Positions 1 through 64,000 of a DNA stretch of 64,000 nucleotides are shown here, piece after piece. The DNA comes from Loxodes magnus. Lineage: Eukaryota; Ciliophora; Karyorelictea; Loxodida; Loxodidae. The notes under the pieces were generated by a model. That model saw only the letters and a list, made by a program, of their open reading frames with translations, did not search any database and was not told the origin of the DNA. Numbering within the stretch: the stretch's first letter is position 1; every line of letters starts with the position of its first letter. The stretch spans positions 62,001-126,000 of the forward strand of contig CAMPDV010001037.1 of assembly GCA_946699065.1 (NCBI GenBank), read 5' to 3'. Made by a program: the position numbers and the translations under genes.

Positions 1-3000
1 TTTCTTTATATTTCATCCTAAAAAAGCAAAAATAATCAGAGAAAAGAGATTTTTACTGATAAAATTGACTAAACTTGGTATTAAATTAACTTGCTAAATA
101 TTAAGTTTATAGGAAAATATAAGTATCTGTTGGTTTAATGATGAAGAGACTGATTTTATAGAAAAATTACCTTAAAATGAGAAAGAGAAATTAAATTAAT
201 GGATAATATTTTAATATAAATTATTCAAGTATTTTGCTCAAATGTTATCCCCTGAAACTTTTTCTTCATCTTAATAAATTTTTGATGCTTTTTCTATCTT
301 ATATTTAAAATCTTTAGTGTAATATCACACTTCTACTTCTTACTATCTTTTTGATTCTCATTGTTTTCCTCCATATTTTATATGTTTTCCTCGAATATTT
401 AAAATGAAGCAGATTATATAGATTAACTAAGAGGTTTGTGCTTTATTTCTTAAGGAAACTAAGTTTCTTCCAAAATGCTTATTTGTTTTTCTTCTTTTAA
501 ATAACTTTCCTATTATTTTACTCCTATCTATATAAATTAAATTCATACCATATAATCAAGCTAATCATTTTACTCTTGTTCCTTTTACTAATTTTTTAAT
601 GCAAACCTTGAACTTGATAAGTAGAATGAGGATTAATCTTCAAAGTTAAGGATTTAATCCCTCTAACTTGACTATTACTATTCCCTCTTTTGACTATTTG
701 AAATTTCTTCTAAATCTTCAAATTTAAGATTGTTTTATTAGATTGAATGCCTTTCTTAGCAGATTGGCTTATCTTATTTTTATCTTTCCCTTAATTTTTA
801 ATTTTTCCTTTCCTTTATTTGCTTTACTAAATCCTTAATGGTCACTATTATAATAAAAGCCATAAATACATAAGTTATTATACTTGATATTGTAATTATT
901 ATAATACTACATCTCTTTGAAGTTTGAGATTGTATTGAAGAAAGCATTCTAAGAGATTTAGCATGATCAATAGTATAAAATTAGAAATTAAAGGATAATA
1001 AAGTGATTAATCATAATTCTTGCAAAGTTTGAACTAAATTTAGTAAAATGGATTTAAAAGGTCTAAATTTTAGGATATATACAAGCATTGATATACTTAA
1101 GATAATGCATAAAACTATTTAAGTAAGTGGCTAATCTTTAAAGCCTATTAAAGCAACAGAAAGTAGCTATCTTCTTAATAAAAATAAGGGGTAGAATATT
1201 AATGATGCCTTCTCATGTTTCAGTTCATCAAACAATGGGAAGTATTTTTAAGTGTATTTTTCAAGAAGTTCTACTTAGTCTGAAGTTTCAGAACTAAGTT
1301 TACTTTTTAAAGAAAAATAGTTCTTTATTATTCAGAAAAATCGAACTATCAAGCCAACTTGTAACATCTAAATATAAAATAAATTACCAATGAAGTATAT
1401 GAAGCTAGTGTATTTAATATGCTTAATCAATCATCAAATTTTGAATAAACTATCTGGAGGATACAAGATAATGATATCTAAAAATAAAATAGCAAATAAA
1501 AAGTCAAAGCGAACCGATAATGTAAATACTTTAATCTAATATAAGAAAGGATGTTAGTCATGCAAAATCTTTGTAATTAGCCAAGTAATATATCAAGAAA
1601 AGGAATAATGCAAATAAAAATGATTTATACTATTGAGTTATCGAAAAAGGCATAACTTTTGTATCCTAGATATAATCATTTAATGTCATCAACTTTTTAC
1701 TTCTCATTGCCAATAATAAAGCTTTCCTATAGCTTTTTGATGAAACTTTGACTTTGCAAATAATAATAAGCATGCAAAATGTCTGGCTTATTAATTTATA
1801 TATATGCATTAGAGTAAAATAATTCAGTCATTAGCATAAATTGAAATCAGTAACCTAATGAGCTACCTTATGGTAAAGCTAAACTAACTGTTGAAACTAA
1901 TCCAACTCCAATTGTACCTGCATTTTGCCCTTATTACATTTATTAAATTACTTATTTTTCACTATCTGAGATATCAAAGTTTTCTATTGTTATTTCTTAC
2001 GATATTTTATCAGATTCTTCTTCAATAATCTCTTAAAATATCATTTCTTATTGCTATATATTTTGCTCTTCTTATGATTCTTAATCTTTTTCTGTAAATT
2101 CGCAAGTTTTAACTTCAGAAATTAGAAAAGGTTAAAAGCATTTTTAGCAAGCTAATCCATCTTCTGAGCATTCTTCACAATTTTTTATTGCCATACTACA
2201 AGGCTCACATATTCCTATTTTTTAATTATCTTATTCTGTTATTGGACACCAGTTTATGCATGTACTTTGGGATAATTTCTGGTTTTCGCATTTTAAACAT
2301 TAAAATTAATCCGAACACTAACTACAATTCTAATGAATCATTCTACATGATTAGCAGTTGCTTTATGCATCTAAAAAATATCCTTTTTAGCACTATTTAC
2401 ACTGCTTTTTTAATTGATCACATTTGAGGCATTATGGTATTTCTTCACTGCAAGGTTTACAAATTCTATCTCAATCGAAATCTTGTTCTGTCTCAGCACA
2501 CTAATGTTTGCATGTATTTTCAGAGAGAAATAAACTATTACACAACTTACAAATTCCTTTTTCTTTGCAAAAAACACAGTCCGAGTGTATCTAACTGCAA
2601 GAAAGGCACTAGTTTTCAGATAGAAAATTATTAGCAAAGCAAGAATCACAATAAAGTTCTTAATTTTTTTCTGAGCATTACTAACAGTTTTCTATTATTT
2701 TGCTACATGGTTAACATATACCATTCTTATCAATATCTTACTCGTTTTGAGGGCATGATTAAACACAGCTATTTTAAGACATCTTTTGATCACAATATAA
2801 GCAAACATTTCTTTAATCAAAATATCAGTTTACTTTACAACTATCTAGACATTCATTATCTTATAGCTTTAAATCATTCTTACATCTGTAGCATATATTT
2901 CCATCATAAGAACACATACTACAATTTTTAATAAGAGTACATGTATGATTCCTTGAATCAAAATTACAAAAACGAAAAGAAGCTAATTTATATTAGGAGT

Positions 3001-6000
3001 TATCAGTTCCAAAAACAATTTAGCTTTTGTTAGAGTGCTATAGATAATTTGGCTAATTGTCAAAAGACTTTTATTGGCAAGTTTCTTGATATTACGATGA
3101 ATTTATACACCAATACAAAATGTAGGAAAAGTCTTTTTTGCTTATAACTTCAAATCCTATAAACATTTAGATAATCTAATTAAATTCAAAATATTCTGCA
3201 TTATTGACAGTTAAAATAAATCCATTACTATCCAAAATAAAACTATTACTTTAAACAGATAGAGAAAGCCAAAGATTAGGTTATTATGCATTCATTATTT
3301 AGAATATGCGATAGGTAGTTTAGGTTTAAGTAAGGTTAATCCAAAATACGTATGAGATAAAGCTCTACGTAAAGAGATCACCATAGAACATATCATTACC
3401 TCCAGTAATCAGTAAAGAACTTCCATTACCTAAAGTTTAATAAGAGTCAGTAAACAAAATTGCCGAGCTATATCAATTGCAACTACTTAATTGAATTTTA
3501 ACATTATCTTTGCATAATCCTTTACATGATCTCCAGCATGGAGTTCTTAAACTCCAGCAATCTATTTTTGATTCTGTTATTTCTAACTAAGAATATGTTT
3601 TAGCTAATAATATCAATCCTACTATTTCTCCTTCAAATTCTTCCGTAAAATTATCAAAAGCAGTTCCCTTACCTATTGTTAAGATATCATCTTCCTCTAC
3701 ATTCTAAAGGAGTAAAATCATCTTTTTCAAAAAACAAATTGAAGGAAACTTATAATTTCCTACACAATATTAAGATTATCAGCTCTAGAAAGATACTACT
3801 ACTAGATGCCATTCTATTTTATAGTAATAAGGTCCATTTAAACCTTAAACTGATCCTACTTCTGTTCTAAAGGCGAATACTTTACTATTTGTATTAACAG
3901 CTGCCTATAAGAAGATTCTAGATGGATTTCTTATTTCAAAAATGAGATAATTACTATAGGTATTATGTAATTTTATTCAGAAAGAGATTGTAAACCCACT
4001 GGATCCTGAGATAACGGAACTGACTAAATTATTGAAATTAAAGGAATCTTCATCCTCTTCTATTGAATAAAATTTAAGAGAGTTATTTTGATTAACAACT
4101 AAAGGAGTATAAGTATCAAGAGTAGAAACATCTTCACATACAGTAACAGGATATCTTGAAGTTCCAACTATAGTATCTATATCCTAATTAATACATATCA
4201 ACTCACTATTTTTATACTAATTAAAAGGTTAAAATCCTAAGGTGCATTTACATTTTCCAGGATTAGGTCAATAAGGATTGTATGTATTAAAAGCATTACA
4301 TTATTTTAAGGTATTTAAAAAATTACTAACTTTTATTCAATTTACTTAAAATGTAAAATTAGAAATACCAAAAATAATTTAACTATTGCAGGAATGAATT
4401 AATCTGCATTATTTTTTAACCATTTCCTTAGAAGTACATTAGGAATATTAATTATCAACTATTACGCAAACTTAAAATTAAATCTAGTTATCATTCTAGT
4501 CTTCATCAAAAAATTAAATTTAAAATTCTATTTCATTATTATCACTACAATAAAATTAAAATGCAAGTATAATTTCTTAAGAGTCAAATTTAAATATCAA
4601 AGTATTTTTATCTATAGATATTTATGTCAAGCATTCAATATTTCCTATCTCTACTAAATTTACCTTCTAACAAGCTGTTAAAATAATTGTTCCGAATTCT
4701 ATTACTTATCACTGTTCTGTTAAATGATCTCCTTAGAATATTGAATTGTTACATCCTTAGTAAGAAAGCTAGTTTTAAATATTAACTTTTTAAGGTGTTA
4801 GAAGTAATTTAAAAGGTTCATATCATGCACATTAACTAAGTTAAGGATCATTTTACGTTAAGTCAGCATTATCATAACAAATACCTTCACAATATGATCA
4901 GCAAGGAGATCTCATCGCCCAACAATCTATCAATTCTGTATCAAATTTAAGTACTTCTACAAATAATTTTGGTGCTAATAGCTTTCCTTTAAACTAATCA
5001 TATCCTTATCAACTTCCTCCTCCTATTTTCAATTATTCATTTACATCTACTGAAGATAAATCTAGAAGGAAATGATTTCTATTATAGCAGAATGAGGGAT
5101 ATTTATAGTTAGCATAGCAATAAATAGAACCAGTAAAAGAAAATTTAACAGCAGCGAAATGCCATAAGATATGATGATTGAAAGGACCTTACATTTTATT
5201 TTCTCCATTAACTTCTGTTCTGAACTGAATAGTTTTAGCGTTATTATTAACAGCTATTTATAAGAAAACTCTCGCTCCATTAGTGATTTCTAGAATTTGC
5301 ATATCATTAGCATCATTATCAAGTGAGAATCAGAATGATATCTAAAAGTAATTACTTTAATTGATATATGAAGAGACTAAAGGATAAAAGTCTACTATCT
5401 ATATTATAGAAGTTGAAGTAAAATCATCTGCATAACATTAATAATTAGTTAATTCCTTATAACTTGCTAGAGTTTATGGATCTTCACATATAGTGTATGG
5501 TCATCTTTAACCTACTAGTATATTACTCATTGTATATTATGCACAATTTATTTAATTACTCGGAGTTGATAACTATGATTAATAAGATAAAGTACATATA
5601 CATAATCCATTTTATAAATCATAATTTGGGTTGTAAGAATATTGTATAGAATCACAATTAGGGAGTGAGAAGTAAATATTTAGATACGCATAATTATAAC
5701 TTGGTAATGCAGATGGAAATGAAATATAACCATTTGTATGATAGAGACCACATACAGTAGTAACCGTTTAAGTTGTATAATATAAAGGTTCAAGATGCAA
5801 CTAAGGTTAAGCACTAAATGTTATGATATACTTGCTAGTCGAAACTAATTAAATCTCTTATTGTATGTTAATTAATTAATTAGTTCATGCAGGTATAGTT
5901 ACTTGTAAGTTATAATTGGTTGTTGCTGATGTAACTTATAAAGTAAATTGATTATTAGTAACACTTATTGAAGATGAGCAGGAATTCCCTTATTAATGAT

Positions 6001-9000
6001 ATATAATTCTAGTTGATGTACTATAAGTTACCTCTACCCAGAAGTTTATTCTAGTATACTAATGTTAAGTGAATAAGTCATAGTAAAAGATAGTTTAGTC
6101 TTATAAGTAGTAAACTTAATTATTTGCAGTAACTAGAACAGAATCTTTTAAGTTAATTGCTTGTTCAACACAATTAATACCTGATAAAAATTAAACATCA
6201 AGAACATCTGTACATACTCCATTACAATTTAACCAACATGGCGTAAATGCTGTTCAACAGTCTGCTACCTCTTGATTTAAATTGAATGATGTGTAAAGAT
6301 CATCGATTATTTTAAGAGCAAGTACTTTACCATTATAAAAGGAATAAGTTGCATAAGTTCCATCTCCTATATAAATTGTGTCTTAAGAATCAAGATCATT
6401 TAATGATAGGTAAAATTGTCTTTCAAAACAGTAAGATGGCTTTGTATAGCTTGAATAGCAGTAAAGAGAACCTGAAGAAGTAAAACCAGTAACAATATAG
6501 TGTCAGATATTTGTATTGTCATAAGGTACTTAAAATTATTATGATGTTACTCTTTGAGAATAATAAAGTAAAGTAGATGAAATTGAATCAACATTAATAC
6601 TTAGAAAAACAACTCCACCGCTATTTCTTATTTCAATCATTCGCATTTTAGAAATAAGTTCTGTAGTTGAGAACCAAAATGATAAAATAAATCCATTAGA
6701 AAATGGCTATTAGCTTGAAACTAAGTTATAAACGTTAGTACTTATAACATCTCCTGATTACGTAAAATATTTTTAATTCATTTAATTTAATTCGCTAAAA
6801 TCTATATTTACTCAATTAATCGGATAGATGCAAGTAGTTAAAGGCCATCTATCAGTACTACTTATAGTTTAAATTGACTCAGGTGTACAAGTTATTAAAT
6901 TAGATCCTCCTCCTTACAAATCCATTTAATATCCAAGAGAGCAGACGCATTCTCCTACAGATGGGAATAAAGGATTATATTAGTTAGGTGCATTACAACT
7001 ACTACTAGTAGGAGAGAAATTTTAAATTGTGACTAACGCTACTTGATAGCTGGAAACTCCGATTGGTGTGGAAGGAAACTTAATATAACTTGTATCAGAA
7101 TGCTAAATATTGCAAACACTTTATTAAATTGCACTTCTACATATACTTAATTCATTTTTATCTATGTTATCATAGAAAATACACCAAGAAAAATTATAAT
7201 TACTACCTGTAAATGTATTTTCAATAATCATTTTAAACTCCATTATCCCAGTAAATTTTGAAAGAGTAATTGAATAATCATACTTTTAAGTGGATTAAAC
7301 AACTAGAGCAAAAATATTATCAGTAACTGCTAGAGTCATAGAACATAGAGAGTTATGTCCTATTATTTAGAAGATATTATAGCTTTAAGTTGTACGATTT
7401 AGTTTAGTTCAAAACTAATATCTAAGAGTATTATACTAAAACATATCATAATAAAACTTCGTCTCATCACTTCCTTTTATTAAGATACTGATAATGTTGT
7501 CACAAGTAAAGTAACTATCAGATTATATTTAGTAAGTGGAATATAAACTGCATTAAGGATTCGCATATTGAGGATCATTAGATGAAGTGCAAATACCTTG
7601 ACAATTTAGACGACAGGGAGTAAATGTCGTTCAACAATCAACTAAACTTTAAGATAAGCCTAAAGTATTGAAATCTTCGTCTAATATTTTAACTGCTAGT
7701 AGATACCCAACATATTCCGTAAAGTCTGGGTAGGTTCCACTACCAATATAAATTGCATCATCTAATTAAATATCATTTAGTGATAGTATGAGAGTTCTGG
7801 AAAAGCAGTATGAAGGTTTAGCTATACTTGAGTAACAATATTTAGTACCAGAAACTGAAAATGCAATAACTACATAGTGCCAAGAATTAGAAGCATCATA
7901 AGGAACTTTAAACTTTTGTTCACGATTTCTTTATGTTCAGAAGAGTAAAATTTCTTAATTAGTATCTATATTAACGCTTATAAATATATTCCCAATTCTT
8001 CTTATTTCAAATATTGCCATTTATGCATTTTATTGAGAAGTTGAAAACCAAAAAGTTAAAATAAAGCCTGAGCTGAAAGGAATTTGTACAGAAACCATGG
8101 AGTAAAAATGAGTATTTCCTTCGTCTGTTCCAGAAGTGAATGAATATGAAGTTATCTAGTTAATTTTATTAGTTATGTCAATATTTATTCATTTAGAAGG
8201 ATAATTACACATATTAATGGGATATCTACCAGTATATGATGAGTCAGTTATAGGTAATATAGATTTAATGCTACATTCAATGTCATCAGTACCAAACAAA
8301 GTCATAGAATAACCCAGCGAGCAGACACAAGATCCTTAAGAAGGCCAAAAAGGATTGTATTTATGTGTTCCATCACATGTAGGAAGAGTAAAAGAATACA
8401 CATAGAGTCCTCTAAATTAGTACTAAACGTTAGAAACAGGAAAATAAATAGCACTTTAAGAAAAGTATGAAAGCTTACATACATCTTTCAGAGTTTTAAA
8501 AACGCAGGTTTATTCAAAAGTAGTTTTAGTTACACAAAACGAGACATTATAAAATGAAGAGTTATAATTGTATATTAATTCTATTCGAAACTCTTAGTTA
8601 CTTATTCACTCATTTAATGTAATAGAAAAGTTAGTTGTTATATTAGCTTTAATTTGTAAGATAAAAGATTATTAACTAATATATAATTTAGCATAGCAGA
8701 AAGAGTTTGCACCATTTATAAACTTAGAAAGATATTATGTTAGGTTTGGAGTTGCTTTTATTCAGAACTTATACACTGAAACGTCTTAAAAGAATGTATT
8801 ATAGTTAAATATACTCTAATTACTCCCTTAATAAGTATAGTTAGTTTAAGAATCTACATCTTACCAAGTAGTAGTAATTAAATCATGAGGCTAGCCAATC
8901 GTACATGTTACTGTTCGGATATTTTATGGATCTTATGTTAAACATGCTCCTTAGCAGTAAGTTCAGCAAGGAGTTCTCATTGATCAGCAATCAACAGTTT

Positions 9001-10492
9001 TTTCGTTCAAATTTAGAGAAGAATTTGTTTAGCCTGTTATTTTAAAATTCAACAATTATCCCTCAAATTCTACAAATTCAAATTCACTACTATTAAAAGT
9101 ACCATTTCCAAATATTATTTCATCATCAGAAGTTGCCTAAGTAAGAGTAAGAGCAAAGGAATAATCAAAGCAGTACGAAGCTGAGTTAATATAAGTTGAG
9201 ACACAAAATCTTGTCCCTAAGTTTGTAAATCCTACAACAACATAATGCCAAATGTTTCCATCGTAATAAGGAGCTTTTAAAGCCTATTAAGAAGTAGATC
9301 TATTTTAAAAAAGTAGAAACGCTCTTTGATCCATTATACTCTAAAATGACAAAAATACAGAGTTATTTCCTTGAGTATTTAAGATTTCAAACACTCTGGT
9401 ATTTTTGATAGTATTGCTCTATTTAATTCACAAAGAAATTGTAAATCCTTAATTATTAATTATAGAGGAAATTGCTTAATAAAAATTAGTTTATAAAGTT
9501 GGTCCTTCTGTAGTAAAGTTGTCACCAACTTATTTATTTATTAGAATTTATATAAAATCACTAGGATAATTACAACTTTAGAGTGGTCATCTTCCACTAG
9601 TTTCTTAAAGAGCGGGTAAAGAAGATTTTACACAAGTATTTTTAAAACTTCCTGAGCCAACCATTTTAGTTATATATCCTAAACTACATATGCAAGCTCC
9701 AATAGAATCATAATTAGGATTGTATTATTTAGTATTACTTCCAACACACTCAATGTTATTATTGGCATAATTAAATATGTCAAACCAAGCTATTTTAAAA
9801 TCTCCATTGTATGAAATTGTTAATTTAATATAACTTTATGAGCTTTGCTCTAAGTTACAAATTGAAGGAATATTGTAATGATATTAGCATTATATTGGAA
9901 ATTTATGGAAATCAGGAATAACACATCATCTTATTGTGTAACTATATGTTTATGGATTATAATTTTATTAATATTAAATTCGAAATTCCATTGTACCAGA
10001 ACTAAATTCTTATATCGTAATAGATTTAGTAGGTAAAGACGATATTTTTAAATAAAAATTGCTTTCCATTGTTTACATATATAATGTGCATTAACCTCTA
10101 TTGTTATTTATCTCGAAAAAGTTGTATAAACCTTAATTATATGCGACTGATACCCAAAATTCATATCTCAAAGAATTTTACATAAAGATATCATTATAAA
10201 ATAAACTTTCATTATTTCCATAGAACTTTTCCCAATCAGAGCCTTGAGGAGTATAAGTATCAGCTATAAGATTTATAGCTCCTTAATGGCAAGTACTTCC
10301 AACTATATATTAAGGGTCAGTTGTCTTACATTATCCTTGGCAATTTCTTCAGCAAGGAGAATTACTGGAATAGCAATCAATTATATTTTCGTTTAGTGAT
10401 AGTAAAGTATGATATTTTCCTGAAAATTTTAAATCCATAATTTATCCTATAAATTAAGAATAGCCAAACACTGTACCAGCACCAACTATCAA
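1..10492. repeat. Long direct repeat, left copy (partner 53509-64000)
   Basis: Position n here matches n+53,508 for the whole stretch, with scattered substitutions and a cluster near 2430-2650; I saw no length change. It includes the 3' flank and the C-terminal two thirds of giant copy A. Both ends are cut by the window, so the true repeat is longer. Confidence 0.95.
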
Positions 10493-13400
10493 AGTATCAT
10501 TTGCTGTTAACTCGTTTAAAGTCAAAGCGAATGAATAAGTCTTACAATCAGAGGGAAATAAATAAGATGAATAGCAATAATATGTTTCATTACTAGTAAA
10601 ACTTACAACAATATGATGTCATGTATTTTACTAGCAGTAAGAATAGTTAAATTATTAAATATAATTTCTTTCTTTATAGAAAATGAGAACTTTCTATACT
10701 TAGTCAATTAATATGGACAAAAAAATGTCTGAATTATCTTTAATTTCCAAAACATTCATATTTTAATTTCCTTTTATTTGCATCCAAAAATCTAACATAA
10801 ATCCATCAGTGTTTCTAATTGCTTAAACAGTATTTAAAAATAGTGGATTTTCTAAAATATCAGCACTAGAACTGAAATTTTATCCTTAGTAACTGCTTAT
10901 TCCCTATATTAAAATATAATCATTAGGAATTTTACATTTTTAAACTGGTTATCTTAAAGCAAAATTAGAATCAAAACATTTTAATGGTTAATCAAGATAT
11001 CATACTACACCTTAGCATGGTTTACATTAGCAAAGTGCAAAATCTGGTGAATATTTATTATATTAATTGGATTAACAAGTGGCTTATAATGGTGAATTTT
11101 ATTCTAAAATATTTAAATTACTAATGTAATATCATACATTTAAAGAGCCAAATTAAATAAAGCTACCTATTTTGTAATATAGTTTTGGAATACAGTTACT
11201 ACCATTAACTTAATAATCATTTATGCAATACGTATCAAAACTTAATAAAATGCATACTTACAAATCATATGTACGATTTCCATGATCGTTAATATAAATA
11301 CTAACTTTTCCTTTCATTTGGGAATAATAAGGTATAACTATTTAATACTGCTTATCTTCACTGTCTACTTTTGAATCTAAAATTATTTTAAATTTATAAT
11401 TCTCATAAGTAATTTCTAATGAACATGTTCCACTATTTTCAAGCTTAAAAATATTGTTTAAACCATACATATTTGGCAATCAAAATTAAAATTAATAATT
11501 TGAATATTACTTGTTTTAAAGTGAATTCTTAAAATTATTAATATAAGCATATATTTAAAAAAATCATTCATTCGACATCTTAAATTCTTAATTGGCAAAA
11601 ATATAGTTAGAAGTTCATGGTAAGCATCCTGTTTTATATGTAGGATCTGCCTCATAGCAAATTCCATTACAATTTTGCTCACATGGTGTTTATAAAGTCA
11701 AACAGTTAACGAAAGATGAATTTATGTTAAGATTTTAATAATTGTCATTATATAATCTCAAAGCTAAAATTTAACCAGTAAAATTGGAATATCCATTTGC
11801 TGTTCCTCCTCCTATGGTTAAAATATCATTAGCACTATTGGTTTTTGGGTCTATTTTAAATTAGTTAGAAGTAGTACAATAACTTGGGAAATAAAAAGTG
11901 GAATAGCAGTACTAAATATCTATTGCTGTAAGACTTAACAAAAAGTGATGCCATTTTGCTTAATCATAATATGAAAATTATATTTTCTAGCCAGAGTATA
12001 AATCTGAAATCAATACAAGGGTATAAATAGTATTATTTACTCCTAACTACAAAAAAATCCTTTAATTGTCTTTTATTTATAAGAATATCATTTAAGATGA
12101 TGAACCAGGATATAATCAAAAGTCTAAAGTAAATCCATTTATATTTAATTAATTTCCAATAGTTGCTTAAAAATTATAAGTATTTCCTCCAGTTCCATTA
12201 AAAATATAAGCATCTGCTTAATCCGTTGTAAGAGGTATAAATTAGGGAATATCACAATTAGATAGTGGAAGGAGAATATCAGAATTAATTTCTTTTAAAT
12301 CGCATTATCCTCTCTAGTTACTAATTTCTTCATATCCAAGAGAGCAAATGCATTATCCTTTACTTGGTCAATTAGGATTAAATTTATGTACCTCAGAACA
12401 ACTATAGCAATCATTCCTTGTAAAGCCTTAGCATTTAGAGCAAGTATAATGACATTAATTAGAAGGAGTTTAGCAAAAATCATTTTCACACAAAATGCAT
12501 TTTGATCCATTTACATAATAAGAATCAGGACATACGGGTAAGCATTATCCATTTAATAAATAAAATCCATTTTTACAAGAAGTAGCTGAAATATAATCTG
12601 GGGAGGAACAAGTTGCATGATTTCAAAAGCATGAATAGCATTAATCATTGCTTAATGCAGATCCATTGAAGCAAGTACAATTTGCATTAGGATCTTTATG
12701 ATAGTTAGGGTGATCACAAGTTTAATTTCAGATATTACTGCAACCTTATTCTGTCATAAAAAAGCAATCTGTTCTTGTTTGGCAATTTTCTGAGCAAGTT
12801 TTAAATTTATTTAAATATCACTTGATAAAATAATAATCTAGTTCGTCCAGTGATATAATTTTATTGGGAAACATTTTCATATCATAAATATATTGCACAC
12901 TAGATCCTTAATAAAAAGTAATAGTGAATGTTGAAGGTGAAATATTAATAAAATCATAGTTTGGAATAATGCATGTTATGCTTTCTTAGTAATTAGAAAG
13001 GCTACTAAGTTTATTGAATGAATTACCAGTGAATTCATAAAGATACCCTATTCTGTAAAGTTTATAATCATCTTCATTATAGTAGTATCATACTATTAAA
13101 AGAAGTTAGGCCTTTAAATTTCATTAGCTATCACTTAGCTCTAAAAAGCAGGTTTAATTACTATTATTTCCATAATCATAAATTTTTAATTTTTAGTTTT
13201 CCTCACACAATTTTAAGATGTAATCTCTTGAACTTGGAATATTTATTTAAGCGAAACAATTTTCTCCATTAATTAAGTCAGAAGTTTTTCACGCAACTAT
13301 AAAAGCAAAAGAACTTAAAGATGAATAATTCTTTTCGTTTAATCTATTTACATCGAAACTAGGAAGAGTTGAAAACGATTATGCGTAATCAGGATCAGAA

Positions 13401-15409: not shown

Positions 15410-16250
15410 TTATAAAAATGTAAATTGAAATAAAGCCTAAAGACATATTTAGTTATCTAATTGGAGAGCACTCTTAACTATAAATCGAATAATTTCAAAG
15501 CATTTTATCAAAAGAAACAGAAAGATATTATAAGAATGATAAAGCTTGGATGTATCTTTCCCTAGCTACAAGTTTTAGACTAAGATGGTAATTAGAAAAC
15601 TTAAAATTTAAAAAGAAGGTTAGGATTGCTAGATGGGATTAAATGATTCAGCAAAGACTTGGAGGGATTTTCTTGTTCTTGAAGAGAGAGCAACATATAT
15701 TTAAAGGAGTTAATCATGAGATTAATTAATTAAGCTTTATTTAGGTTTTCCTAAATTTTCAAGTTTATCTAGCATAGGCAGTTCCATTTTCAAGGTAATT
15801 TAAGTAGCAATAATCAAGAAATACTGCAAGAGGAAGCTTATAATTTAGATTTAGAAAAGCAGAAATGCTGGGAATTTGAGATATACAGTTTGGCATTTGA
15901 AGATAGCATTCAATTGATAACTTTATAAATCCATTTTAAGTTATTCTATTAATTGATTTTATTTTAAATGAATAAATGAAACTAATAATTATTAGATACA
16001 AATACTAAGAACTCATCTAATAACTCACATTTAATCCAAATTTATAAAACAAATTTAAGCTAATCTAGAACTAATCAATGTAAAAGCTCACTTATCAAAT
16101 AACGAGAAAAATAGTCAAGGATATGAGAAATTTTAAATCTGCCTTTTAGTCAATCGGCCTAAGGACAGTTTAAATTTGAAATCTAAGAGAATAAAATGCT
16201 GGAATTAGATTGATGAATATCTATTATACTTAGGGATAATATCAATTAAT
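15410..16250. repeat. 5' flank of copy A, homologous to the flank of copy B
   Basis: The first 500 bp or so outward from the copy A start match, at moderate identity and inverted, the stretch outward from the copy B start (about 36870-37342). Shared landmarks include a TTAGTTATCTAATT-like string and a TTTCAAAG string at the same distance from each start. The duplication unit therefore includes promoter DNA. An ATG at 15643 lies 234 bp from the A start, like the ATG 236 bp from the B start, but its reading does not match the 78-residue B-side protein well. I call it a relic. Beyond about 15.95 kb the stretch is featureless AT-rich DNA. Confidence 0.55.
15643..15900 (+). pseudogene. Likely relic of the divergent small gene seen beside copy B
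   Basis: The position relative to the giant-gene start (ATG 234 bp away, divergent) equals that of the 78-residue ORF beside copy B (236 bp). Nucleotide similarity continues for roughly 200 bp, including the strings around CTTTATTTA and TTTTCAAGG. The translated sequence shares only scattered residues with the B-side protein, and the similarity ends before the conserved-looking basic C-terminal part. A decayed copy fits best. It could instead be conserved promoter DNA with no gene on either side. Confidence 0.25.
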
Positions 16251-22518: not shown

Positions 22519-22546
22519 AAAATAAATAAATAAATAAATAAATAAA
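22519..22546. repeat. (AAAT)n microsatellite
   Basis: About seven perfect tandem AAAT units follow the string CAACACGG. A short imperfect AAGGAATAT tandem lies 200 bp further on, near 22740-22765. Confidence 0.85.
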
Positions 22547-23702: not shown

Positions 23703-23867
23703 TATAATTAAAATTTATACTTTGATTGCAAGCATAATACATATTTCAACCAAAATCTACATAATTAATTAAAAAAAAATCGGTATTAACTTTATAAGAT
23801 TCTTATTATACATATCTGTACTTATAGCTATTAAATTAAATTAACATTAGTTTATATATAGGAATAA

Positions 23868-37107: not shown

Positions 37108-37342
37108 TGAATCCAATAAAAGCAATCTGAGACTATTAAATTAATTCTTAGCTTTATAATTTATAATCTATGCTAAAATATTGCAGCTAAGATAAGCCAA
37201 GATCTATAAATATTGCATTCTCTTTGTATTTATTTTGATGAAGCTCTTTGAAATAATAAAATATTAGATGTATTGCTTTAATGTTCCCTAATTAGATAAC
37301 TTAATCTACTTTTATATTTTATTTTAATTGGCATTTATTAAA
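37108..37342. promoter_or_regulatory. Divergent intergenic region upstream of copy B
   Basis: 235 bp between two divergent start codons, AT-rich, and moderately conserved with the equivalent stretch beside copy A (15410-15642). Conservation at the same distance from both giant-gene starts makes it the natural place for their promoter. No specific element can be named. Confidence 0.3.
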
Positions 37343-49300: not shown

Positions 49301-52300
49301 TATAGCTCGGCAATTTTGTTTACTGACTCTTATTAAACTTTAGGTAATGGAAGTTCTTTACTGATTACTGGAGGTAATGATATGTTCTATGGTGATCTCT
49401 TTACGTAGAGCTTTATCTCATACGTATTTTGGATTAACCTTACTTAAACCTAAACTACCTATCGCATATTTTAAATAATGAATACGTAATAACCTAATCT
49501 TTGGCTTTCTCTATCTGTTTAAAGTAATAGTTTTATTTTGGATAGTAATGGATTTATTTTAACTGTCAATAATGCAGAATATTTTGAATTTAATTAGATT
49601 ATCTAAATGTTTATAGGATTTGAAGTTATAAACAAAAAAGACTTTTCCTACATTTTGTATTGGTGTATCTATTCATCGTAATATCAAGAAACTTGCCAAT
49701 AAAAGTCTTTTGACAATTAGCCAAATTATCTATAGCACTCTAATTAGAGCTAAATTGTTTTTGGAACTGATAACTCCTAATATAAATTAGCTTCTTTTCG
49801 TTTTTGTAATTTTGATTCAAGGAATTATACATGTACTCTTATTAAAAATTGTAGTATGTGTTCTTATGATGGAAATATATGCTACAGATGTAAGAATGAT
49901 TTAAAGCTATAAGATAATGAATGTCTAGATAGTTGTAAAGTAAACTGATATTTTGATTAAAGAAATGTTTGCTTATATTGTGATTAAAAGATGTCTTAAA
50001 ATAGCTGTGTTTAATCATGCCCTCAAAACGAGTAAGATATTGATAAGAATGGTATATGTTAACCATGTACCAAAATAATAGAAAATTGCTAGTAATGCTC
50101 AGAAAAAAATTAAGAACTTTATTGTTGATCTTGTTTTGATAATCATTATCTAGCTGAAAATTAATGCCATCATTGTAGTAAGATACACTCAGATTGTGTT
50201 ATTTGCCAAGAAAAAGGAATTTGTAAGATGTGCAATAGTTTATTTCTCTCTGAAAATACATGCAAAACTTAGTGTGCTGAGACTGAGCAAGATTTCGATT
50301 AAGATTCAATTTTTAAACCTTGTAGTGAAGAAATTCCATAGTGTAATAAGTGTGACTCTAATTATAGACAGTGCAAAGAGTGCTAAAAGGGATACTTTTT
50401 AGATATGCAAGGTAGTTGTTTATCTTGCAAACTGATACATTAGAATTGTAGTTAATGCTAAGATTAGAATATTTGTATTGACTGTAAAAATTAGAAGTTA
50501 TCTTAAAATACTTGTGTAATACTTGTCCTTCTTATGAATAACATATGTTAAATGAGGTATATGTGAGTCTTGCAATAAAGCAGTACTAAATTGCATGAAT
50601 TGCTCAGAAGATGGAAGCTTATGTTATTAATGGTAAGACCAATATATTTTTATTAATAGCAAATGTTAATAAATATCAGATATTGAGAAATAAGATTAAG
50701 AATAAGATTAAGATTAATACTTATTAGAGGAAGGAGAATATACTAAAGAAAAGAAGGAACAATTATCATAGAAAGAGAGAAAAAGTCTTGATAGTTACAA
50801 TATTTCAGAAAGCTAGAAGTAGTTTATTAAAAAAAACCGATAAGTTTAGAATATTTTATATCTTACTGATATATCTTCTTCAACTACTTTAGTCTTAATG
50901 TCTTCATCCTTAGGATAATCAGGAAATATTTTTACTATAATGCTAGCTAATGAGTTATTTAATACAAAATTGTATAATTTAGTTAACAAACCTGAATTAT
51001 AAAAGCTTATTACTTCAACTAGAACCAGAATATACTAAATCAGTTAATAAAATCGCTAGATTTTAGTGAGAATGGAAAATTGTAGACTTCAATAAAGTTA
51101 ATCTTCTTAGAAATGACCATAGCAACTTCATATAAAGTATTTAAATTAATTTCTTAATTATTGCAGTGATTCCAATTTTAGATGGTTTAGTATATTTAAT
51201 AAACAGGATAATAAAACTAAAATTCCTAGAAGATTTAGATAAACTTATTTACATTACCGATTAATGATCAGACTTTATATACTATTTGCCCCTAAAATAT
51301 GAGATTCAACTTTTAGTTAAATAAATAATCTAGCTTTGATAATGCTATATGCATTATAAACTCAACAGCTGCTTTAATCTGTCTATTAATTTTTTAATTT
51401 TAGGTTCTATAAACTTTTGCTATTTTTTATTTTTTTATAATCATATTCAAGTTTTTCAAATTACTTGGTGCAGCTAGTCCATAAGGATTAAGTTAAGAAG
51501 AGACCTCTAAAGCATATATCATTAAATATTTTCCAGTTTTTTATTAATAAAGCCGGGAAAAGGAGCTTTAATGTTCTATCCTTTATTCCTTGTGAGAAAA
51601 TTTTTACTATCAATTATTCTAATTACTGTATAGAACAGTTTAGCTTAAATCATAATCTGCTTAGTTTTAAGCTTGATTTAGCTTATTTATATAATTAAAG
51701 TTAGGCCTATTTAAATTAAATGCATCTAAATGCTATACAAATTTTCTATGAGTTATGAATGACAATTCTTTATACCTTCTACTTTTACCTTTATACTTTA
51801 GAAAATGTTTCAGCTTTTTAAATTTATAATAATACATTTAACTGTTCATTTCTTTTATCGAAATACTTACCGAAAAACCTTATAGTTGTTTTCCTTAAAA
51901 ATGAGTAAGATTTATGAAAATTTAGTTCTTTTTATCTCCCTTTGAGTTTTTCTCCTATTTTTTCGATTGACTTTACTATGCTAGATTGCTTTAATTTTTT
52001 CGCCTAAATTGAACGACTTTAGTTTTTCTTATGAATTAAAATCCTTAGTATTACAACCCAATTTTTATTAGCATCAAGATTCATTAAAAGCTTAATATCA
52101 GGTTCTTTTTTTTAATTATGTGTGATGTTAGTATTACTTAGATTTCTTAGTTTCTCTTTTGTGTTTTGTGTACTAAGATTATTTACCTTTTTATTTTTAA
52201 TTTTAAATAAAGCAATTTTTAGATTAATCAAGATTAGAAAGAAATAGAAATGCATGATTCTAGTAAATAGTAATGATGCTAAAGAGGTATTAAATAAGTG

Positions 52301-53508: not shown

Positions 53509-53732
53509 TTTCTTTATATTTCATCCTAAAAAAGCAAAAATAATCAGAGAAAAGAGATTTTTACTGATAAGATTGACTAAACTTGGTATTAAATTAACTT
53601 GCTAAATATTAAGTTTATAGGAAAATATAAGTATCTGTTGGTTTAATGATGAAGAGACTGATTTTATAGAAAAATTACCTTAAAATGAGAAAGAGAAATT
53701 AAATTAATGGATAATATTTTAATATAAATTAT

Positions 53733-56700
53733 TCAAGTATTTTGCTCAAATGTTATCCCCTGAAACTTTTTCTTCATCTTAATAAATTTTTGATGCTTTT
53801 TCTATCTTATATTTAAAATCTTTAGTGTAATATCACACTTCTACTTCTTACTATCTTTTTGATTCTCATTGTTTTCCTCCATATTTTATATGTTTTCCTC
53901 GAATATTTAAAATGAAGCAGATTATATAGATTAACTAAGAGGTTTGTGCTTTATTTCTTAAGGAAACTAAGTTTCTTCCAAAATGCTTATTTGTTTTTCT
54001 TCTTTTAAATAACTTTCCTATTATTTTACTCCTATCTATATAAATTAAATTCATACCATATAATCAAGCTAATCATTTTACTCTTGTTCCTTTTACTAAT
54101 TTTTTAATGCAAACCTTGAACTTGATAAGTAGAATGAGGATTAATCTTCAAAGTTAAGGATTTAATCCCTCTAACTTGACTATTACTATTCCCTCTTTTG
54201 ACTATTTGAAATTTCTTCTAAATCTTCAAATTTAAGATTGTTTTATTAGATTGAATGCCTTTCTTAGCAGATTGGCTTATCTTATTTTTATCTTTCCCTT
54301 AATTTTTAATTTTTCCTTTCCTTTATTTGCTTTACTAAATCCTTAATGGTCACTATTATAATAAAAGCCATAAATACATAAGTTACTATACTTGATATTG
54401 TAATTATTATAATACTACATCTCTTTGAAGTTTGAGATTGTATTGAAGAAAGCATTCTAAGAGATTTAGCATGATCAATAGTATAAAATTAGAAATTAAA
54501 GGATAATAAAGTGATTAATCATAATTCTTGCAAAGTTTGAACTAAATTTAGTAAAATGGATTTAAAAGGTCTAAATTTTAGGATATATACAAGCATTGAT
54601 ATACTTAAGATAATGCATAAAACTATTTAAGTAAGTGGCTAATCTTTAAAGCCTATTAAAGCAACAGAAAGTAGCTATCTTCTTAATAAAAATAAGGGGT
54701 AGAATATTAATGATGCCTTCTCATGTTTCAGTTCATCAAACAATGGGAAGTATTTTTAAGTGTATTTTTCAAGAAGTTCTACTTAGTCTGAAGTTTCAGA
54801 ACTAAGTTTACTTTTTAAAGAAAAATAGTTCTTTATGATTCAGAAAAATCGAACTATCAAGCCAACTTGTAACATCTAAATATAAAATAAATTACCAATG
54901 AAGTATATGAAGCTAGTGTATTTAATATGCTTAACCAATCATCAAATTTTGAATACACTATCTGGAGGATACAAGATAATGATATCTAAAAATAAAATAG
55001 CAAATAAAAAGTCAAAGCGAACCGATAATGTAAATACTTTAATCTAATATAAGAAAGGATGTTAGTCATGCAAAATCTTTGTAATTAGCCAAGTAATATA
55101 TCAAGAAAAGGAATAATGCAAATAAAAATGATTTATACTATTGAGTTATCGAAAAAGGCATAACTTTTGTATCCTAGATATAATCATTTAATGTCATCAA
55201 CTTTTTACTTCTCATTGCCAATAATAAAGCTTTCCTATAGTTTTTTGATGTAACTTTGACTTTGCAAATAATAATAAGCATGCAAAATGTCTGGCTTATT
55301 AATTTATATATATGCATTAGAGTAAAATAATTCAGTCATTAGCATAAATTGAAATCAGTAACCTAATGAGCTACCTTATGGTAAAGCTAAACTAACTGTT
55401 GAAACTAATCCAACTCCAATTGTACCTGCATTTTGCGCTTATTACATTTATTAAATTACTTATTTTTCACTATCTAAGATATCAAAGTTTTCTATTGTTA
55501 TTTCTTACGATATTTTATCAGATTCTTCTTCAATAATCTCTTAAAATATCATTTCTTATTGCTATATATTTTGCTCTTCTTATGATTCTTAATCTTTTTC
55601 TGTAAATTCGCAAGTTTTAACTTCAGAAATTAGAAAAGGTTAAAAGCATTTTTAGCAAGCTAATCCATCTTCTGAGCATTCTTCACAATTTTTTATTGCC
55701 ATACTACAAGGCTCACATATTCCTATTTTTTAATTATCTTATTCTGTTATTGGACACTAGTTTATGCATGTACTTTGGGATAATTTCTGGTTTTCGCATT
55801 TTAAACATTAAAATTAATCCGAACACTAACTACAATTCTAATGAATCATTCTACATGATTAGCAGTTGCTTTATGCATCTAAAAAATATCCTTTTTAGCA
55901 CTATTTACACTGCTTTTTTAATTGATCACATTTGAGGCATTATGGTATTTCTTCGCTACAAGGTTTACAAATTGAATCTCAATCGAAATCTTGCTCAGTC
56001 TCAGCACACTAAGTTTTGCATGTATTTTCAGAGAGAAATAAACTATTGCACATCTTACAAATTCCTTTTTCTTGGCAAATAACACAATCTGAGTGTATCT
56101 TACTACAATGATGGCATTTATTTTCAGCTAGATAATGATTATCAAAACAAGATCAACAATAAAGTTCTTAATTTTTTTCTGAGCATTACTAGCAATTTTC
56201 TATTATTTTGGTACATGGTTAACATATACCATTCTTATCAATATCTTACTAGTTTTGAGGGCATGATTAAACACAGCTATTTTAAGACATCTTTTAATCA
56301 CAATATAAGCAAACATTTCTTTAATCAAAATATCAGTTTACTTTACAACTATCTAGACATTCATTATCTTATAGCTTTAAATCATTCTTACATCTGTAGC
56401 ATATATTTCCATCATAAGAACACATACTACAATTTTTAATAAGAGTACATGTATAATTCCTTGAATCAAAATTACTAAAACGAAAAGAAGCTAATTTATA
56501 TTAGGAGTTATCAGTTCCAAAAATGATTTAGCTCTAATTAGAGTGCTATAGATAATTTGGTTAATTGTCAAAAGACTTTTATTGGCAAGTTTCTTGATAT
56601 TACGATGAATAGATACACCAATGCAAAATGTAGGAAAAGTCTTTTTTGTTTATAACTTCAAATCCTATAAACATTTAGATAATCTAATTAAATTCAAAAT

Positions 56701-59700
56701 ATTCTGCATTATTGACAGTTAAAATAAATCCATTACTATCCAAAATAAAACTATTACTTTAAACAGATAGAGAAAGCCAAAGATTAGGTTATTATGCATT
56801 CATTATTTAAAATATGCGATAGGTAGTTTAGGTTTAAGTAAGGTTAATCCAAAATACGTATGAGATAAAGCTCTACGTAAAGAGATCACCATAAAACATA
56901 TCATTACCTCCAGTAATCAGTAAAGAACTTCCATTACCTAAAGTTTAATAAGAGTCAGTAAACAAAATAGCTGAACTATATCAATTACAACTGCTTAATT
57001 GAATGTTAACATTATCTTTGCATAATCCTTTACATGATCTCCAGCATGGAGTTCTTAAACTCCAACAATCTATTTTTGATTCTGTTATTTCTAACTAAGA
57101 ATATGTTTTAGCTAATAATATCAATCCTACTATTTCTCCTTCAAATTCTTCCGTAAAATTATCAAAAGCAGTTCCCTTACCTATTGTTAAGATATCATCT
57201 TCCTCTACATTCTAAAGGAGTAAACTCATCTTTTTCAAAAAGCAAATTGAAGGAAACTTATAATTTCCTACACAATATTAAGATTATCAGCTCTAGAAAG
57301 ATACTACTACTAGATGCCATTCTATTTTATAGTAATAAGGTCCATTTAAACCTTAAACTGATCCTACTTCTGTTCTAAAGGCGAATACTTTACTATTTGT
57401 ATTAACAGCTGCCTATAAGAAGATTCTAGATGGATTTCTTATTTCAAAAATGAGATAATTACTATAGGTATTATGTAATTTTATTCAGAAAGAGATTGTA
57501 AACCCACTGGATCCTGAGATAACAGAACTGACTAAATTATTGAAATTAAAGGAATCTTCATCCTCTTCTATAGAATAAAATTTAAGAGAGTTATTTTGAT
57601 TAACAACTAAAGGAGTATAAGTATCAAGAGTAGAAACATCTTCACATACGGTAACAGGATATCTTGAAGTTCCAACTATAGTATCTATATCCTAATTAAT
57701 ACATATCAACTCACTATTTTTATACTAATTAAAAGGTTAAAATCCTAAGGTGCATTTACATTTTCCAGGATTAGGTCAATAAGGATTGTATGTATTAAAA
57801 GCATTACATTATTTTAAGGTATTTAAAAAATTACTAACTTTTATTCAATTTACTTAAAATGTAAAATTAGAAATACCAAAAATAATTTAACTATTGCAGG
57901 AATGAATTAATCTGCATTATTTTTTAACCATTTCCTTAGAAGTACATTAGGAATATTAATTATCAACTATTACGCAAACTTAAAATTAAATCTAGTTATC
58001 ATTCTAGTCTTCATCAAAAAATAGAAGTTAAAATTCTATTTCATTATTATCACTACAATAAAATTAAAATGCAAGTATAATTTCTTAAGAGTCAAATTTA
58101 AATATCAAAGTATTTTTATCTATAGATATTTATGTCAAGCATTCAATATTTCTTATCTCTACTAAATTTACCTTCTAACAAGCTGTTAAAATAATTGTTC
58201 CGAATTCTATTACTTATCACTGTTCTGTTAAATGATCTCCTTAGAATATTGAATTGTTACATCCTTAGTAAGAAAGCTAGTTTTAAATATTAACTTTTTA
58301 AGGTGTTAGAAGTAATTTAAAAGGTTCATATCATGCACATTAACTAAGTTAAGGATCATTTTACGTTAAGTCAGCATTATCATAACAAATACCTTCACAA
58401 TATGATCAGCAAGGAGATCTCATCGCCCAACAATCTATCAATTCTGTATCAAATTTAAGTACTTCTACAAATAATTTTGGTGCTAATAGCTTTCCTTTAA
58501 ACTAATCATATCCTTATCAACTTCCTCCTCCTATTTTCAATTATTCATTTACATCTACTGAAGATAAATCTAGAAGGAAATGATTTCTATTATAGCAGAA
58601 TGAGGGATATTTATAGTTAGCATAGCAATAAATAGAACCAGTAAAAGAAAATTTAACAGCAGCGAAATGCCATAAGATATGATGATTGAAAGGACCTTAC
58701 ATTTTATTTTCTCCATTAACTTCTGTTCTGAACTGAATAGTTTTAGCGTTATTATTAACAGCTATTTATAAGAAAACTCTCGCTCCATTAGTGATTTCTA
58801 GAATTTGCATATCATTAGCATCATTATCAAGTGAGAATCAGAATGATATCTAAAAGTAATTACTTTAATTGATATATGAAGAGACTAAAGGATAAAAGTC
58901 TACTATCTATATTATAGAAGTTGAAGTAAAATCATCTGCATAACATTAATAATTAGTTAATTCCTTATAACTTGCTAGAGTTTATGGATCTTCACATATA
59001 GTGTATGGTCATCTTTAACCTACTAGTATATTACTCATTGTATATTATGCACAATTTATTTAATTACTCGGAGTTGATAACTATGATTAATAAGATAAAG
59101 TACATATACATAATCCATTTTATAAATCATAATTTGGGTTGTAAGAATATTGTATAGAATCACAATTAGGGAGTGAGAAGTAAATATTTAGATACGCATA
59201 ATTATAACTTGGTAATGCAGATGGAAATGAAATATAACCATTTGTATGATAGAGACCACATACAGTAGTAACCGTTTAAGTTGTATAATATAAAGGTTCA
59301 AGATGGAACTAAGGTTAAGCACTAAATGTTATGATATACTTGCTAGTCTAAACTAATTAAATCTCTTATTGTATGTTAATTAATTAATTAGTTCATGCAG
59401 GTATAGTTACTTGTAAGTTATAATTGGTTGTTGCTGATGTAACTTATAAAGTAAATTGATTATTAGTAACACTTATTGAAGTTGAGCAAGAGTTTCCTTA
59501 TTAATGATATATAATTCTAGTTGATGTACTATAAGTTACCTCTACCCAGAAGTTTATTCTAGTATACTAATGTTAAGTGAATAAGTCATAGTAAAAGATA
59601 GTTTAGTCTTATAAGTAGTAAACTTAATTATTTGCAGTAACTAGAACAGAATCTTTTAAGTTAATTGCTTGTTCAGCACAATTAATACCTGATAAAAATT

Positions 59701-62700
59701 AAACATCAAGAACATCTGTACATACTCCATTACAATTTAACCAACATGGCGTAAATGCTGTTCAACAGTCTGCTACCTCTTGATTTAAATTGAATGATGT
59801 GTAAAGATCATCGATTATTTTAAGAGCAAGTACTTTACCATTATAAAAGGAATAAGTTGCATAAGTTCCATTTCCTATATAAATTGTGTCTTAAGAATCA
59901 AGATCATTTAATGATAGGTAAAATTGTCTTTCAAAACAGTAAGATGGCTTTGTATGGCTTGAATAGCAGTAAAGAGAACCTGAAGAAGTAAAACCAGTAA
60001 CAATATAGTGTCAGATATTTGTATTGTCATAAGGTACTTAAAATTATTATGATGTTACTCTTTGAGAATAATAAAGTAAAGTAGATGAAATTGAATCAAC
60101 ATTAATACTTAGAAAAACAACTCCACCGCTATTTCTTATTTCAATCATTCGCATTTTAGAAATAAGTTCTGTAGTTGAGAACCAAAATGATAAAATAAAT
60201 CCATTAGAAAATGGCTATTAGCTTGAAACTAAGTTATAAACGTTAGTACTTATAACATCTCCTGATTACGTAAAATATTTTTAAGTCATTTAATTTAATT
60301 CGCTAAAATCTATATTTACTCAATTAATCGGATAGATGCAAGTAGTTAAAGGCCATCTATCAGTACTACTTATAGTTTAAATTGACTCAGGTGTACAAGT
60401 TATTAAATTAGATCCTCCTCCTTACAAATCCATTTAATATCCAAGAGAGCAGACGCATTCTCCTACAGATGGGAATAAAGGATTATATTAGTTAGGTGCA
60501 TTACAACTACTACTAGTAGGAGAGAAGTTTTAAATTGTGACTAACGCTACTTGATAGCTGGAAAATCCGATTGGTGTGGAAGGAAACTTAATATAACTTG
60601 TATCAGAATGCTAAATATTGCAAACACTTTATTAAATTGCACTTCTACATATACTTAATTCATTTTTATCTATGTTATCATAGAAAATACACCAAGAAAA
60701 ATTATAATTACTACCTGTAAATGTATTTTAAATAATCATTTTAAACTCCATTATCCCAGTAAATTTTGAAAGAGTAATTGAATAATCATACTTTTAAGTG
60801 GATTAAACAACTAGAGCAAAAATATTATCAGTAACTGCTAGAGTCATAGAACATAGAGAGTTATGTCCTATTATTTAGAAGATATTATAGCTTTAAGTTG
60901 TACGATTTAGTTTAGTTCAAAACTAATATCTAAGAGTATTATACTAAAACATATCATAATAAAACTTCGTCTCATCACTTCCTTTTATTAAGATACTGAT
61001 AATGTTGTCACAAGTAAAGTAACTATCAGATGATATTTAGTAAGTGGAATATAAACTGCATTAAGGATTCGCATATTGAGGATCATTAGATGAAGTGCAA
61101 ATACCTTGACAATTTAGACGACAGGGAGTAAATGTCGTTCAACAATCAACTAAACTTTAAGATAAGCCTAAAGTATTGAAATCTTCGTCTAATATTTTAA
61201 CTGCTAGTAGATACCCAACATATTCCGTAAAGTCTGGGTAGGTTCCACTACCAATATAAATTGCATCATCTAATTAAATATCATTTAGTGATAGTATGAG
61301 AGTTCTGGAAAAGCAGTATGAAGGTTTAGCTATACTTGAGTAACAATATTTAGTACCAGAAACTGAAAATGCAATAACTACATAGTGCCAAGAATTAGAA
61401 GCATCATAAGGAACTTTAAACTTTTGTTCACGATTTCTTTATGTTCAGAAGAGTAAAATTTCTTAATTAGTATCTATATTAACGCTTATAAATATATTCC
61501 CAATTCTTCTTATTTCAAATATTGCCATTTATGCATTTTATTGAGAAGTTGAAAACCAAAAAGTTAAAATAAAGCCTGAGCTGAAAGGAATTTGTACAGA
61601 AACCATGGAGTAAAAATGAGTATTTCCTTCGTCTGTTCCAGAAGTGAATGAATATGAAGTTATCTAGTTAATTTTATTAGTTATGTCAATATTTATTCAT
61701 TTAGAAGGATAATTACACATATTAATGGGATATCTACCAGTATATGATGAGTCAGTTATAGGTAATATAGATTTAATGCTACATTCAATGTCATCAGTAC
61801 CAAACAAAGTCATAGAATAACCCAGCGAGCAGACACAAGATCCTTAAGAAGGCCAAAAAGGATTGTATTTATGTGTTCCATCACATGTAGGAAGAGTAAA
61901 AGAATACACATAGAGTCCTCTAAATTAGTACTAAACGTTAGAAACAGGAAAATAAATAGCACTTTAAGAAAAGTATGAAAGCTTACATACATCTTTCAGA
62001 GTTTTAAAAACGCAGGTTTATTCAAAAGTAGTTTTAGTTACACAAAACGAGACATTATAAAATGAAGAGTTATAATTGTATATTAATTCTATTCGAAACT
62101 CTTAGTTACTTATTCACTCATTTAATGTAATAGAAAAGTTAGTTGTTATATTAGCTTTAATTTGTAAGATAAAAGATTATTAACTAATATATAATTTAGC
62201 ATAGCAGAAAGAGTTTGCACCATTTATAAACTTAGAAAGATATTATGTTAGGTTTGGAGTTGCTTTTATTCAGAACTTATACACTGAAACGTCTTAAAAG
62301 AATGTATTATAGTTAAATATACTCTAATTACTCCCTTAATAAGTATAGTTAGTTTAAGAATCTACATCTTACCAAGTAGTAGTAATTAAATCATGAGGTT
62401 AGCCAATCGTACATGTTACTGTTCGGATATTTTATGGATCTTATGTTAAACATTCTCCTTAGCAGTAAGTTCAGCAAGGAGTTCTCATTGATCAGCAATC
62501 AACAGTTTTTTCGTTCAAATTTAGAGAAGAATTTGTTTAGCCTGTTATTTTAAAATTCAACAATTATCCCTCAAATTCTACAAATTCAAATTCACTACTA
62601 TTAAAAGTACCATTTCCAAATATTATTTCATCATCAGAAGTTGCCTAAGTAAGAGTAAGAGCAAAGGAATAATCAAAGCAGTACGAAGCTGAGTTAATAT

Positions 62701-64000
62701 AAGTTGAGACGCAAAATCTTGTCCCTAAGTTTGTAAATCCTACAACGACATAATGCCAAATGTTTCCATCGTAATAAGGAGCTTTTAAAGCCTATTAAGA
62801 AGTAGATCTATTTGAAAAAAGTAGAAACGCTCTTTGATCCATTATACTCTAAAATGACAAAAACACAGAGTTATTTCCTTGAGTATTTAAGATTTCAAAC
62901 ACTCTGGTATTTTTGATAGTATTGCTCTATTTAATTCACAAAGAAATTGTAAATCCTTAATTATTAATTATAGAGGAAATTGCTTAATAAAAATTAGTTT
63001 ATAAAGTTGGTCCTTCTGTAGTAAAGTTGTCACCAACTTATTTATTTATTAGAATTTATATAAAATCACTAGGATAATTACAACTTTAGAGTGGTCATCT
63101 TCCACTAGTTTCTTAAAGAGCGGGTAAAGAAGATTTTACACAAGTATTTTTAAAACTTCTTGAGCCAACCATTTTAGTTATATATCCTAAACTACATATG
63201 CAAGCTCCAATAGAATCATAATTAGGATTGTATTATTTAGTATTACTTCCAATACATTCAATGCTATTATTGGCATTATTAAATATGTCAAACCAAGCTA
63301 TTTTAAAATCTCCATTGTATGAAATTGTAAATTTAATATAACTTTATGAGCTTTGCTCTAAGTTACAAATTGAAGGAATATTGTAATGATATTAGCATTA
63401 TATTGGAAATTTATGGAAATCAGGAATAACACATCATCTTATTGTGTAACTATATGTTTATGGGTTATAATTTTATTAATATAAAATTCGAAATTCCATT
63501 GTATCAGAACTAAATTCTTATATCGTAATAGATTTAGTAGGTAAAGACGTTATTATTAAATAAAAATTGCTTTTCATTGTTTACATATATAATGTGCATT
63601 AACCTCTATTGTTATTTATCTCGAAAAAGTTTTATGAACTTATACTATATCCGACTGATACCCAAAATTCATATCTCAAAGAATTTTACATAAAGATATC
63701 ATTATAAAATAAACTTTCATTATTTCCATAGAACTTTTCCCAATCAGAGCCTTGAGGAGTATAAGTATCAGCTATAAGATTTATAGCTCCTTAATGGCAA
63801 GTAGTTCCAACTATATATTAAGGGTCAATTGTCTTACATTATCCTTGGCAATTTCTTCAGCAAGGAGAATTACTGGAATAGCAATCAATTATATTTTCGT
63901 TTAGTGATAGTAAAGTATGATATCTTCCTGAAAATTTTAAATCCATAATTTATCCTATAAATTAAGAATAGCCAAACACTGTACCAGCACCAACTATCAA
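53733..64000 (-). CDS. Giant LamG-repeat surface membrane protein, copy C (5' cut off)
   Basis: Equivalent to residues 1640 to the end of copy A (3,415 residues plus stop in the window). It holds the last part of module 2, modules 3-7 (LamG F-W motifs near 62955, 61576, 60202, 58858 and 57504), the CxxC region, the membrane domain, the 20-nt intron at 54895-54876 and the Gln/Glu-rich tail to the UGA at 53735-53733. The frame is kept throughout as far as checked. It is almost identical to A except at 55930-56220, where it follows copy B (CFDNHYLAENQCHHC type) and not A. The gene converges on copy B. The start lies beyond the window. Confidence 0.87.
54876..54895 (-). other. 20-nt micro-intron in copy C
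   Basis: Identical in sequence and position to the intron of copy A (offset 53,508). Its removal is needed to keep the membrane domain in frame. Confidence 0.85.

Follow-up and report, generated by a model that had tools for sequence, protein, structure and literature searches.

The 64,000-nucleotide stretch of DNA analysed here (the window; bases 62001–126000 of contig C1037 in a genome of 705,730,643 bases) is almost certainly karyorelict ciliate nuclear DNA decoded by NCBI table 27, in which UAA and UAG encode glutamine and UGA means either tryptophan or stop. The code seen in the three giant genes of the window is correct, but it is already published and catalogued (NCBI table 27). For Loxodes, with a Loxodes magnus macronuclear assembly given as 706 Mbp, the relevant passages of PMC11441545 describe UAA and UAG as Gln, UGA as Trp inside the gene and as stop at the gene end, and name UGA the sole stop, its meaning being set by its position near the mRNA end; they also report short 3' UTRs and a depletion of UGA and UAA, not of UAG, ahead of the stop. 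Likewise, passages of PMC4967479 already state three readings of UGA for Condylostoma and Parduczia, and state that in the Condylostoma magnum code all three stop codons can be sense. Our genome resembles table 27 as these passages describe it for Parduczia sp. and Loxodes magnus in the codon meanings themselves, in the short A+T-rich 3' ends, and in the loss of UGA and UAA, with UAG retained, just before the stop.

Read with table 11, the whole 64 kb contains no stop-to-stop frame of 300 aa, and with no codon counted as a stop all frames are open, openness in itself being no proof of coding. Giant gene A (225–15400, minus strand) encodes LamG and Cys-rich modules and a C-terminal part resembling several membrane segments; its 5' end is approximate, being set by homology to gene B, its 3' part shows a frame change near 1.3 kb (a short intron or an indel), and its tail, hydrophobic in places, is shared with B at low identity. 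Giant gene B (37343–50516, plus strand) opens at 37343 with the signal-peptide-like start MKNLAQTLVLLVSINECLS, continues through seven LamG-type modules and a Cys-rich tail to about 50.5 kb, and beyond this point its 3' end is broken across frames. Giant gene C (53733–64000, minus strand, with its UGA stop at 53735–53733) is a near-copy of A cut off by the window end. Positions 2149–16515 of the A region are 90.9% identical to the B region (36237–50620), and positions 53509–64000 of the C region are 98.9% identical to positions 1–10492, without a gap.

We take each of these genes to have one coding frame because several lines of evidence agree: UGA plus UGG is in excess in a single frame at 36–50 kb on the plus strand and at 2–15 kb and 54–64 kb on the minus strand, the A/B gaps, in a list sorted by eye, are divisible by three in four of four cases inside the gene vs. 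3 of 27 outside, the A/B dN/dS is 0.50 in frame and rises to 0.96 and 0.87 when the frame is shifted, and the LamG profile matches. This dN/dS is only moderate, which makes some relaxation of constraint possible, and together with the broken frames of the B 3' end and of the LINE discussed below it is what speaks for the giant genes being pseudogenes whose internal stops are real. That explanation is extremely improbable, given that the frame is held over 13 kb with all four gaps in threes, that in-frame UAA, UAG, and UGA also occur in intact conserved genes elsewhere in this genome, and that UGA falls in tryptophan columns, a placement by which the column test refutes it. The view of the original prediction that all three stop codons are sense codons in the giant genes is thus supported, and it extends to these conserved genes.

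Apart from the question of the code, the A/B dS is about 0.01–0.02 across 43000–48500 of the window and 0.15–0.23 on both flanks, which suggests gene conversion between A and B. The window also contains large direct and inverted copies, and a 1-kb query was found again, inverted and at about 100% identity, at C1037:31965–32965; the contig may be a palindrome or an assembly error.

With regard to UGA, tryptophan positions had been proposed on the basis of two module-closing motifs, DC-UGG...PC-UGG and DC-UGA...PC-UGA, and both are present as reported on the plus strand, the former at 49211–49261 (C at 49214) and the latter at 43781–43831 (C at 43784). Over the seven modules, the first place of this motif is UGA in three, UGG in two, and another codon in two, and the second place is UGA in two, UGG in three, and another codon in two. 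In an alignment of the seven gene B modules that treated the three stops as unknown, 19 of their 36 UGAs fell in the nine columns holding UGG, whereas 20,000 shuffles averaged 0.47 and never exceeded 4; the placement of UGA relative to the conserved Trp columns is not random. The residue opposite UGA is Trp in 46 of 169 cases, a 40-fold enrichment, and opposite UGG in 38 of 72, a 78-fold enrichment. The other 17 module UGAs sit in columns that lack UGG, and the UGA columns show a 2.2-fold enrichment for Tyr as well. Between A and B, all six UGG changes are to UGA, and among 25 UGA changes only six are to UGG and another six to UAA.

The LamG profile (PF13385), searched against a 1267-aa stretch with three matches (40100–43900, plus strand), scored best, at 43.1 bits, with UGA read as Trp; the Arg reading gave 20.1 bits, short of the 27.6 cut-off, and the family was not listed when UGA was set to Cys, Ser, Leu, Gly, or Gln. 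A Euplotes-like code (table 10), in which UGA would be cysteine, could appeal to the Cys-rich character of the protein, and yet the chance of its applying here is negligible, since the LamG match is lost under that reading, which refutes it, and Cys is outside the six most enriched residues of the UGA columns. The original prediction also pointed to a LINE in which UGA replaces the conserved Trp of NWRPIALL. The motif N-UGA-RPIALL does exist, at 27652, within a reverse transcriptase piece (27646–27975, plus strand) whose downstream frames are broken; the RVT_1 match covers profile positions 6–106 of 205 only, at 30.0 bits for a cut-off of 29.6, and the FADD box lies in a different frame. By its sequence this LINE is a decayed copy, and because of the broken RT frames it is weak evidence for the code.

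The 4387 codons of gene B comprise 59 UGA and 24 UGG, besides 240 UAA, 57 UAG, 40 CAA, and 4 CAG, so that UGA makes up 1.3% of its codons (59/4387), in contrast with 0.120% for Parduczia sp. overall as given in a passage of PMC4967479. The giant-gene UGA share of 71% also differs from the 6 of 16 found in conserved genes (p 0.019), a comparison with five genes only that we do not press. Outside the window, alignment with solved structures places four of five UGAs of three proteins opposite Trp: one of two in a kynurenine aminotransferase-like protein, where the other faces Ser or a gap, two of two in a glutathione peroxidase (GPx), aligned in the three cases shown with designed variants of GPX4, and one of one in SepSecS. 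Pelota carries a UGA as well.

As for UAA and UAG, which had been assigned to Gln-like positions, Gln is indeed the most enriched residue in the UAA and UAG columns of the gene B modules (3.2-fold and 2.8-fold), where Lys and Glu are enriched as well, and in the eRF1 gene 9 of 19 UAR codons align by eye with Gln of human eRF1. The enrichment of Glu, 1.9 to 2.2-fold in these same columns, is what could be said for a code of the Blastocrithidia type (table 31) with glutamate at UAA and UAG; considering that Gln is enriched more strongly and that only two of the 19 eRF1 positions are Glu by eye, such a code is very unlikely, and we keep glutamine as the meaning of both codons.

At the gene ends, UGA is found at the expected place in 36 of the 38 cases examined, namely 17 histones, 19 dyneins, and genes A and C. 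Gene A, which was said to end cleanly at a UGA, does so at 225–227 on the minus strand (read 227–225): going upstream in frame, the first UGA is met at 106 codons, the first UAA at 51, and the first UAG at 23, and G+C falls from 25% in the 300 nt before the stop to 13% in the 60 nt after it. Among 31 histone matches 17 were fetched, and 15 of these end with UGA; by the types that we assigned, these are five H3 (GERT-UGA), one H2B-like, five H2A-like, and four of six H3 variants, the other two variants having UAA. The dyneins were the 19 of 46 Dynein_C matches extending as far as profile position 308 or 309, and all 19 meet a UGA 3–10 codons past the domain, the stop being defined as the first UGA after the domain end so that these 3–10 codons are UGA-free by construction; G+C is 40% before these stops and 19% after them. 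The last 20 codons of the dyneins (380 in total) contain 0 UGA, 19 UGG, 0 UAA, 10 UAG, and 9 CAA or CAG, with the counted Trp codons lying ahead of the domain end and hence outside the constructed UGA-free part. Compared with five conserved genes, UGA vs. UGG is 0 vs. 19 in the dynein ends and 6 vs. 10 in the conserved genes (p 0.005), and UAA vs. UAG, CAA, and CAG is 0 vs. 19 and 48 vs. 46 (p 1.3e-5), while UAG, with 10 of the 19 Gln codons, is not depleted near the stop. The UGA that ends gene A lies in a like setting. The proposal that the meaning of UGA depends on context fits this near-stop depletion, and it coincides with the reading given for Loxodes in the passages of PMC11441545 mentioned above.

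Within the window nothing differs from table 27; outside it, UAA takes the stop position in the two H3-variant genes mentioned above. One of them, L108 (C327:221600–222700), ends in GEKHLTDM-UAA-UAA-UAA, with the next in-frame UGA only after 168 codons and a G+C of 35.5% before the UAA triplet and 17% after it. Its paralog L109 (C34:504250–505000) has the same UAA and then a UGA five codons on. The dN/dS between both is 0.03 over 105 codons, with dS near saturation, and by this comparison the L108 protein is under strong constraint. When the genome was searched with L108, no other copy close to identity came up, the next best match being 83% identical. A 2022 paper on karyorelict codes in Peer Community Journal reportedly noted that UAA may act as the stop in a small proportion of transcripts.

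These data bear on a Condylostoma-type code (table 28), in which not UGA alone but also UAA, and perhaps UAG, would be stops near mRNA ends. We regard it as a tentative alternative and an unlikely one on balance. The conserved L108 gene, with its triple UAA, its distant UGA, and its G+C drop, fits such a code, as do the absence of UAA from the last 20 codons of the 19 dyneins and the UAA depletion before the stop in the published Loxodes data (in the passages of PMC11441545 concerned). Against it, UGA stands at the expected place in 36 of 38 ends, UAG is as frequent near the stop as 10 in 19 Gln codons, the same passages name UGA the sole stop, and L108 is a single assembled copy. Thus our genome is like that of Condylostoma magnum (table 28), as described in PMC4967479 in part, in that all three stops can be sense and in that a UAA gene end looks possible, and it is unlike it in that 36 of the 38 ends examined stop with UGA. 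We retain table 27, and we propose, because L108 ends in UAA-UAA-UAA without a near UGA and because UAA, not UAG, is absent from the dynein ends, that both UAA and UGA somewhat probably keep a position-dependent stop function; with tRNA-Sec(UCA) and SepSecS in the same genome, this would make three readings for UGA and two for UAA.

Of the two anticodons considered for a tRNA-Trp that would read UGA, one was found. A sequence pattern for tRNA-Trp(CCA) gave 138 matches in the genome vs. 17 for the reversed control, most of them in tandem arrays among the 100 matches listed of these 138, and ARAGORN called eight tRNA-Trp(cca) in one locus (L044). Their anticodon stem has an A opposite a C at the top (27–43 in our standard numbering) and four standard pairs below, a 4-bp stem that rests on ARAGORN plus a hand layout, as the RNAfold minimum by itself is not a tRNA-Trp cloverleaf. 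A 4-bp-stem tRNA-Trp(CCA) was already reported for Loxodes, according to a passage of PMC13092985 that cites Swart et al. 2024 in eLife, and ours resembles the tRNA-Trp(CCA) of Blastocrithidia nonstop and Condylostoma in that same passage by its CCA anticodon and by a stem reduced to 4 bp through loss of the top pair, the broken pair being A-C here and C-U there. In contrast, tRNA-Trp(UCA) was not found, with 26 pattern matches vs. 59 in the reversed control under a pattern that other T-loop forms would escape, and with no tRNA called by ARAGORN in the 20 of these 26 loci that were fetched. Patterns were used instead of the Rfam RF00005 model, whose search was swamped by tRNA-Lys and similar copies, with 63 scored of 42,786 candidates. 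The long tandem arrays of tRNA-Trp(CCA) (L044, C67, and C148) have units of about 190 and about 240 bases. Separately, a tRNA-like sequence containing CTTCAGA recurs on L080, L081, and other contigs; it is not called by ARAGORN and is perhaps a tRNA-derived repeat.

As for the eRF1 changes that were to be looked for, eRF1 (L040) keeps NIKS, its residues after NIKS are unlike those of human eRF1, and its YxCxxxF box reads F-L-C-E-N-T-F, with Phe for Tyr. The eRF1 gene itself ends UGA-VG-UGA-V-UGA. For selenocysteine, three places in the genome score above the family cut-off for tRNA-Sec(UCA), and SepSecS is present once; this Sec synthase gene (L129) itself carries an in-frame UGA at a conserved Trp. 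A selenoprotein UGA in GPx was considered and rejected, as only one of four GPx matches holds UGA, and in that one the UGAs occupy Trp positions and Cys is the catalytic residue; near GPx no SECIS-like element was found, all seven Rfam matches being under the cut-off.

The codon meanings, the UGA stops, the near-stop depletion, the tRNA, and the eRF1 gene were all shown here, and from them a mechanism can be outlined. Inside a gene UGA is read as Trp. The most likely reader is the tRNA-Trp(CCA) in which the A27-C43 mismatch leaves an anticodon stem of 4 bp, a role for this tRNA that is suggested by the literature. The last UGA, near the end of a very short 3' UTR, would be read as stop through eRF1, and nearness to the poly(A) tail would, again following the literature, choose between Trp and stop. 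The avoidance of UGA and UAA directly ahead of the true stop would keep the two readings apart.

In summary, the giant genes confirm that a single reading frame can use one codon as sense some 60 times and as stop at its end. With the 59 UGAs of gene B, stopping at each of them in 1% of cases would allow only about 55% of ribosomes to finish, as a matter of arithmetic and not of measurement. L108, for its part, offers a clean place to test whether translation still stops at UAA.
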